Source of the DNA: an uncultured Clostridia bacterium | GTDB lineage: Bacteria; Bacillota; Clostridia; Oscillospirales; Acutalibacteraceae | NCBI GenBank assembly: GCA_946627725.1 | Contig: CAMOVW010000002.1 | Span: 1 to 48,953, forward strand | Reading direction: 5' to 3' | DNA length: 48,953 nucleotides | Position numbers and translations under genes: made by a program | Notes under the pieces: model-generated | Database searches by the model: none | Seen by the model: only the letters and a program-made list of their open reading frames with translations | What the model was told of the DNA's origin: nothing | Shown here: positions 46,744 to 46,915 of the stretch, in pieces | Layout: every line of letters starts with the position of its first letter | Position numbering within the stretch: position 1 is the first letter of the stretch

Positions 46744-46799
46744 AAAAGGAAAAAGGCGCCCTTCCGCGCGGAATTGCCCTCCGCCGCAGAAAAGACGCC
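46744..46799 (-). terminator. gdhA leader terminator 2 (attenuator)
   Basis: Minus strand GGCGTCTTTTC...GGAAGGGCGCC-tttttcctttttc; lies between promoter and gdhA start. Confidence 0.75.
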
Positions 46800-46809
46800 A
46801 TTGCCTTTT
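46790..46809 (-). promoter_or_regulatory. Putative ANTAR-type hexaloop hairpin 2
   Basis: RNA AAAAGGC-[AAUGGC]-GUCUUUU; overlaps the 5' arm of terminator 2. Confidence 0.6.
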
Positions 46810-46827
46810 TTTGTTTGTTTTTCTCCG

Positions 46828-46871
46828 AAAAAAGAGAAAACGCCCTTGAACGTATTGTTCAAAGACGCCTT
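46828..46871 (-). terminator. gdhA leader terminator 1 (attenuator)
   Basis: Minus strand AAGGCGTCTTTGAAC-aatac-GTTCAAGGGCGTTTT-ctctttttt. Confidence 0.7.
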
Positions 46872-46878
46872 TGCCTTT
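46861..46878 (-). promoter_or_regulatory. Putative ANTAR-type hexaloop hairpin 1
   Basis: RNA AAAGGC-[AAAGGC]-GUCUUU; overlaps the 5' arm of terminator 1. Confidence 0.6.
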
Positions 46879-46887
46879 TTCAATTTC

Positions 46888-46915
46888 ATTATACCCCCGC
46901 CGCCGGAAAAGTCAA
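46888..46915 (-). promoter_or_regulatory. Promoter of gdhA operon
   Basis: Minus strand TTGACT-16-TATAAT. Confidence 0.75.

Follow-up and report, generated by a model that had tools for sequence, protein, structure and literature searches.

The gdhA operon leader in the window (the whole stretch of DNA analysed, 48,953 nucleotides from an uncultured Clostridia bacterium) very likely comprises two ANTAR-controlled transcription attenuators in series, each made of one hexaloop hairpin and one terminator. Anatomy, conservation, covariation, mutual exclusivity of the alternative folds, promoter proximity, the link to ANTAR proteins and the occurrence of single-unit leaders were computed, and from these we infer binding, antitermination and a regulatory signal. 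The element behaves like an ANTAR target but fails to display one defining feature of the dual-hexaloop motif, and is a new variant. In many related gut bacteria each stop signal seems to be served by a single hairpin, a simpler form of the two-hairpin textbook mechanism.

Anatomy of the gdhA leader

An earlier note on this DNA had placed a promoter and two hairpin/terminator modules at 46744–46915, and promoter scoring, folding and a scan of the window confirm this arrangement with its coordinates. The features of the locus are as follows.

41638–43224, minus strand: asnB-like asparagine synthase, co-directional and downstream
43250–45337, minus strand: glnN, type III glutamine synthetase (PF12437), second gene of the operon; in relatives the module is found with its orthologues
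45385–46719, minus strand: gdhA, NADP-specific glutamate dehydrogenase (PF00208, PF02812; NF006929 above cut-off), first gene of the operon
46755–46799, minus strand: intrinsic terminator 2, U-rich tail 46754–46743, -29.4 kcal/mol
46790–46809, minus strand: antiterminator hairpin 2, AAAAGGC[AAUGGC]GUCUUUU, loop AATGGC (DNA) at 46802–46797
46837–46871, minus strand: intrinsic terminator 1, 15 pairs, U-rich tail 46836–46827; compensatory changes in relatives
46861–46878, minus strand: antiterminator hairpin 1, AAAGGC[AAAGGC]GUCUUU, loop 46872–46867; stem covaries in relatives
46888–46915, minus strand: sigma-70-type promoter of the gdhA operon, TTGACT-16 nt-TATAAT, 11/12 matches
47469–48683, plus strand: glnA-type glutamine synthetase, divergent; TTG start at 47469, AGGGAGG
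48745–48953, plus strand: ANTAR regulator, N-terminal receiver-like half; the contig ends inside the gene; 43–65% identical to five full-length orthologues

Past the asnB-like gene come further open reading frames in the same direction, apparently pyrG, dapF and an aminotransferase gene. Hairpin 1 starts about 9 nt past the -10 box, near the predicted +3, and is separated from hairpin 2 by 51 nt, with terminator 1 in between. Both hexaloops (AAAGGC and AAUGGC) have A at position 1 and G at position 4, exactly as had been claimed, and a C-G closing pair, and in both modules the 3' arm of the hairpin serves as the 5' arm of the terminator. Terminator 1, with the tail CTCTTTTTTC, was picked up by a terminator scan; terminator 2, with the tail TTTTTCCTTTTT, was missed by that scan yet folds well. 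When both strands of the window were scanned for A1/G4 hexaloops with a stem of at least 5 bp and a 3' arm running into a terminator, three sites were found in the whole 49 kb, two of which are the gdhA-leader modules. An Rfam search returned no family at gathering score, and a relaxed E-value gave weak matches to unrelated sRNAs. A loose pattern allowing two mismatches matched the bacterium's own genome no more often than did the reversed control, and is uninformative past the two exact sites.

The leader folds 6.2 standard deviations below its shuffles (z = -6.2), none of the 200 shuffles being equally stable. The overlapping alternative folds differ greatly in stability: -3.5 and -4.4 kcal/mol for hairpins 1 and 2 against -16.1 and -29.4 kcal/mol for terminators 1 and 2. 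Because the terminators are far more stable than the hexaloop hairpins, termination is expected by default and the hexaloop would need a stabilizing factor.

Conservation, covariation and unit number in relatives

Orthologous gdhA leaders from the same genus were read without a motif filter. Seven of them (L040–L042 and L044–L047) have both modules intact, and each module has a terminator of its own; the second module has decayed in L043, and L048 carries one module, with the hairpin starting shortly past the -10 box. Two further tandem gdhA leaders (L089 and L095) were found by the covariance model, and the gdhA paralogues at 54–58% identity (L059–L068) gave no strict module match. In module 1 of L045, loop position 6 has changed from C to G and the terminator has changed to match; across the relatives 99.4% of the terminator-helix cells are paired, with five pairs changed on both sides. 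The antiterminator stem is invariant among these close relatives and its covariation is uninformative there, so more distant leaders were needed.

The covariance model (R1) matches 17 of 26 genomes of the genus and 80 of 199 of the order. For the distant comparison, 128 glnN leaders were picked by protein similarity to avoid model bias. A structural scan blind to the loop sequence yielded 92 hexaloop-plus-terminator candidates in these leaders, 62 of them with A1 and G4, compared with 3/11, 1/17 and 2/17 in shuffled controls. An anchor test, in which C[AANGNN]G was sought near the -10 box and pairing was not required, found pairing flanks in 159 of 184 cells, where 2000 permutations gave a mean of 121 and a maximum of 140. 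The stem shows 52 cells changed on both sides, compared with 18.7 in shuffled alignments, and lies far above slid controls too. Since members of alignments A3 and A5 were partly selected by pairing or by the AANG motif, the anchor test is the cleaner evidence for the stem and the loop-blind scan the cleaner for the loop.

Stem variants with compensation comprise AAGGC/GUCUU, GAGAC/GUCUC, ACGGC/GCCGU, ACGGC/GUCGC, ACGGC/GUCGU, ACAGC/GCUGU and UGAGC/GUUCA, and across these varying stems the AANG loop and the closing C-G pair persist. The C:G closing pair is found in 33 of 35 unique unfiltered A1/G4 hairpins and without exception in the motif-chosen alignments. The hexaloop is accordingly supported by covariation as a stem structure and not as a linear motif. 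The earlier note had made its reading depend on conservation and covariation of the hexaloops in relatives, and both were found: A1 and G4 are preserved, and covariation is strong in the antiterminator stem and present in the terminator stem too. It is extremely unlikely that the modules are unregulated promoter-proximal terminators or chance hairpins resembling ANTAR targets; short hexaloops do arise easily by chance and U-rich leaders readily form terminators (some appear in shuffles), but the shuffle, permutation and covariation controls all speak against this, as do the conserved distance from the -10 box and the retention of the hexaloop hairpin's 5' arm beyond the needs of the terminator.

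Modules are borne by 68 of the 128 glnN leaders, with one hexaloop in 45, two in 22 and three in 1; the pattern repeats in 80 glnN leaders from titled public genomes, with one hexaloop in 34, two in 17 and three in 1. Merdimmobilis hominis An559, Mediterraneibacter agrestimuris DSM 111629, Anaerotignum lactatifermentans An390 and Claveliimonas monacensis DSM 108991 are among the sources of these public-genome leaders. Genome records titled Treponema (L345 and L348) also hold glnN with hexaloop leaders, by horizontal transfer or misbinning. Ahead of the second glnN of the bacterium's own genome (L202, G000:C206) lies a hairpin close to the promoter, GGGGCTGCGGAAC...GTTCCGTAGCTCC, which has a T-rich tail and no hexaloop and is possibly another attenuation system.

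Tandem glnN hairpins are 43–105 nt apart in 22 of 23 multi-hairpin leaders, one pair overlapping, and in tandem units a terminator stands between the hairpins. The hairpin starts 8–11 nt past the -10 box in 33 of 46 leaders, which puts it at about +2 to +4 and leaves no place for a P1 hairpin ahead of it. These distances bear on the reading of the gdhA leader as a classical dual-hexaloop element, in which hairpin 1 would be a recruiting P1 and hairpin 2 an antiterminating P2, terminator 2 alone would matter and terminator 1 would be incidental. That reading, which is unlikely, would suit the presence of two hexaloops in the gdhA leader and the two-hairpin requirement of the published model (PMC3369931, PMC8934654), but the gaps here and in the glnN leaders stand against eut linkers of 5–12 nt, where 14 nt cripples induction (PMC3369931); moreover, terminator 1 is conserved with compensation, and a single hexaloop is found in the 45 glnN leaders, also in many from named genomes. 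Where the dual-hexaloop definition asks for a short linker of 2–25 nt and one terminator, the hairpins are 51 nt apart in the window and 43–105 nt apart or single in relatives. The suggestion that a hairpin with its own terminator would be a variant architecture is borne out by the one-module leaders, far past the gdhA locus.

The ANTAR regulator and its predicted regulon

The neighbouring regulator assumed by the earlier note exists. The product of the open reading frame from 48745, MPLIERRYTVLLVSASQ...FVIVNSPLPDDPGIR, is the N-terminal half of this protein, and complete ANTAR orthologues lie directly downstream of glnA in relatives. A Pfam search of the bacterium's own genome found no ANTAR domain, because the contig end at 48953 cuts the candidate gene; the domain (PF03861) would lie past that end and is missing from the assembly, and it scores 65.2 bits in the orthologue from L077. 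Absence of the regulator from the genome was considered and rejected, since its N-terminal half is present at the contig end. The phospho-acceptor position is Asn and not Asp (VIVN59SPLPDD) in the window and in the five orthologues, and the ANTAR domain of a full orthologue keeps the equivalents of EutV Lys149, Glu160 and Met172, with EutV Tyr164 replaced by His, as in AmiR. By analogy with the control of AmiR by AmiC, a regulator without the phospho-Asp is probably under the control of a partner protein or a ligand. Its input plausibly reports glutamine or ammonium status, and glutamine synthetase or PII would be our guesses for the partner from gene context.

An A1/G4 attenuator is present in the glnN leader of 44 of 81 ANTAR-positive versus 1 of 28 ANTAR-negative genomes (Fisher p = 9e-7, Fisher p-values being optimistic and a guide only, as the genomes are phylogenetically dependent and some are incomplete). 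The sole ANTAR-negative genome with an attenuator, G144, looks like chance; 37 of the 81 ANTAR-positive genomes have no A1/G4 attenuator in the strict scan, partly because the count includes second glnN paralogues and weaker stems. The anchor test divided by ANTAR status gave 63 of 100 versus 3 of 28 leaders. In many genomes a distance of about 7 kb separates the module from the ANTAR gene on one contig.

Read on their other strand, the glnN/gdhA intergenic regions of relatives show a single hexaloop at about 30 loci, the same loop on an unrelated stem with an overlapping terminator, typically 7–9 nt past the divergent promoter; the stems are AUGAGC[AAAGGC]GUUCAU and its variants, and ACGGAC/GUCCGC. 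Examples in relatives lie in L078 around 1172 (minus strand) and in L077 around 12245 (plus strand). In relatives the divergent operon contains glutamate synthase-like genes, glnA and the ANTAR gene, and since this operon carries a module the ANTAR regulator is probably autoregulated where the divergent module occurs. No divergent module was found on the plus strand of the window upstream of glnA. The gdhA–glnA intergenic region of the window contains repeats at 47010–47250, namely an array of GCCGTTCGCCGTTTGCCGTTCGCCGTTCGC and several copies of GCGGTTCC/GGAACCGC in inverted orientation. They may represent a small palindromic or mobile element by which the divergent leader was displaced.

The first genes after modules are glnN, gdhA, the ammonium transporter gene (amt) and asparagine synthase (asnB), together with the nucleotide genes for adenylosuccinate synthetase (purA), SAICAR synthetase (purC), CTP synthase (pyrG) and a purF-like amidotransferase, the last assigned by glutamine amidotransferase domains and as purF by its N-terminal sequence. 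Single modules stand before purA, purF-like, purC and pyrG genes (L118, L133, L125, L102 and L078 around 9955), and with single modules at purine and pyrimidine genes the regulon extends to nucleotide synthesis.

Control of the operon by ANTAR antitermination, as first proposed in the earlier note, is supported at the sequence level by the A1/G4 conservation, the covariation and the tracking of the modules with the ANTAR protein. A different RNA-binding protein or a small metabolite might instead read the hexaloop, the ANTAR link being an indirect result of shared nitrogen gene neighbourhoods. ANTAR binding here is only inferred, loop conservation (AANG) exceeds the minimal A1/G4 rule and the regulon is one of nitrogen and glutamine metabolism, all of which would suit such a reader; it is nevertheless very unlikely, as the loop and closing-pair rule is exactly that of EutV and NasR, the modules co-occur with ANTAR proteins and in many genomes share a locus with an ANTAR gene, a module also stands in the divergent leader of the ANTAR operon itself, and a 6-nt loop on a free stem makes a poor metabolite pocket.

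Known ANTAR systems and the proposed mechanism

The gdhA and glnN leaders share with the Enterococcus faecalis eut/EutV system the A1/G4 hexaloops, the conserved closing pair, the overlap of the last hairpin with the terminator 5' arm, the nitrogen-related genes and a receiver-ANTAR regulator (PMC3369931, PMC8934654). The eut system has two closely spaced hairpins, one terminator and a phosphorylated receiver, whereas the present leaders have one hexaloop per terminator in units that are widely spaced when in tandem and often single, and a receiver without the phospho-Asp. Klebsiella nasF/NasR follows the same loop rule, a terminal C:G with A1 and G4, as defined by SELEX (PMC7496416), but requires two hairpins for full affinity and senses nitrate through a NIT domain and not a receiver-like one. 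The amiE/AmiR system likewise combines a pseudo-receiver with ANTAR and has His at the EutV Tyr164 position, but its leader was described with P1 and P2 (PMC3369936), and AmiC and amide genes are not among the genes here. The glutamate and nitrogen regulons predicted in Desulfotomaculum have ANTAR RNAs ahead of genes for glutamate synthase, ammonium transport and PII, with several RNAs in one transcription unit; however, the dual-hairpin model was used and the main text describes no single-hexaloop units with their own terminator (PMC3369931). The actinobacterial survey demanded 2–25 nt between hairpins (PMC8164766). In a search that covered the main texts of mostly open-access papers, we found no report of single-hexaloop attenuators.

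By default, each terminator of the gdhA leader would form, being much more stable than the hexaloop hairpin that it overlaps, and transcription would halt ahead of gdhA. The glnA-linked ANTAR protein, as an active dimer, is proposed to capture the hexaloop, with its A1, G4 and C-G pair, as it emerges from RNA polymerase; binding would sequester the terminator 5' arm and let the polymerase pass. Capture would have to precede completion of terminator 1, so that the polymerase would transcribe only a short distance in the time available for binding. At the second unit the decision would be repeated, and the tandem copy may tighten the switch. As each hexaloop would govern its own terminator, one hexaloop would be a complete unit. 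The signal probably enters via a partner of the Asn-bearing receiver.

Against this single-unit reading stand the requirement of EutV in vivo for both P1 and P2 in tight spacing and the abolition of ANTARcc binding by deletion of one stem-loop (PMC3369931), as well as the weak binding of NasR to a single hairpin, at about 12 uM only (PMC7496416). The structural work reported that each dimer engages a single hexaloop at a time, with P1 for recruitment and P2 for antitermination, called for work on single hexaloops and left open their function on a transcribing polymerase (PMC8934654). The natural series of single and double units across many genera, deposited strains included, makes the function of a single hexaloop directly testable; contrary to the published two-hairpin requirement, its promoter-proximal hairpins leave no space for an upstream recruiting hairpin. 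The series also suggests that dual-hairpin searches missed a broad nitrogen regulon (glnN, gdhA, amt, asnB, purA/C/F and pyrG) in gut and rumen Clostridia. It is likely that much of the Clostridia has, as its functional ANTAR target, a single 5'-end hexaloop per terminator, with two-hairpin recruitment as one variant and not the rule, and a glutamine-synthetase-linked receiver devoid of the phospho-Asp would run a nitrogen and nucleotide regulon in this way.
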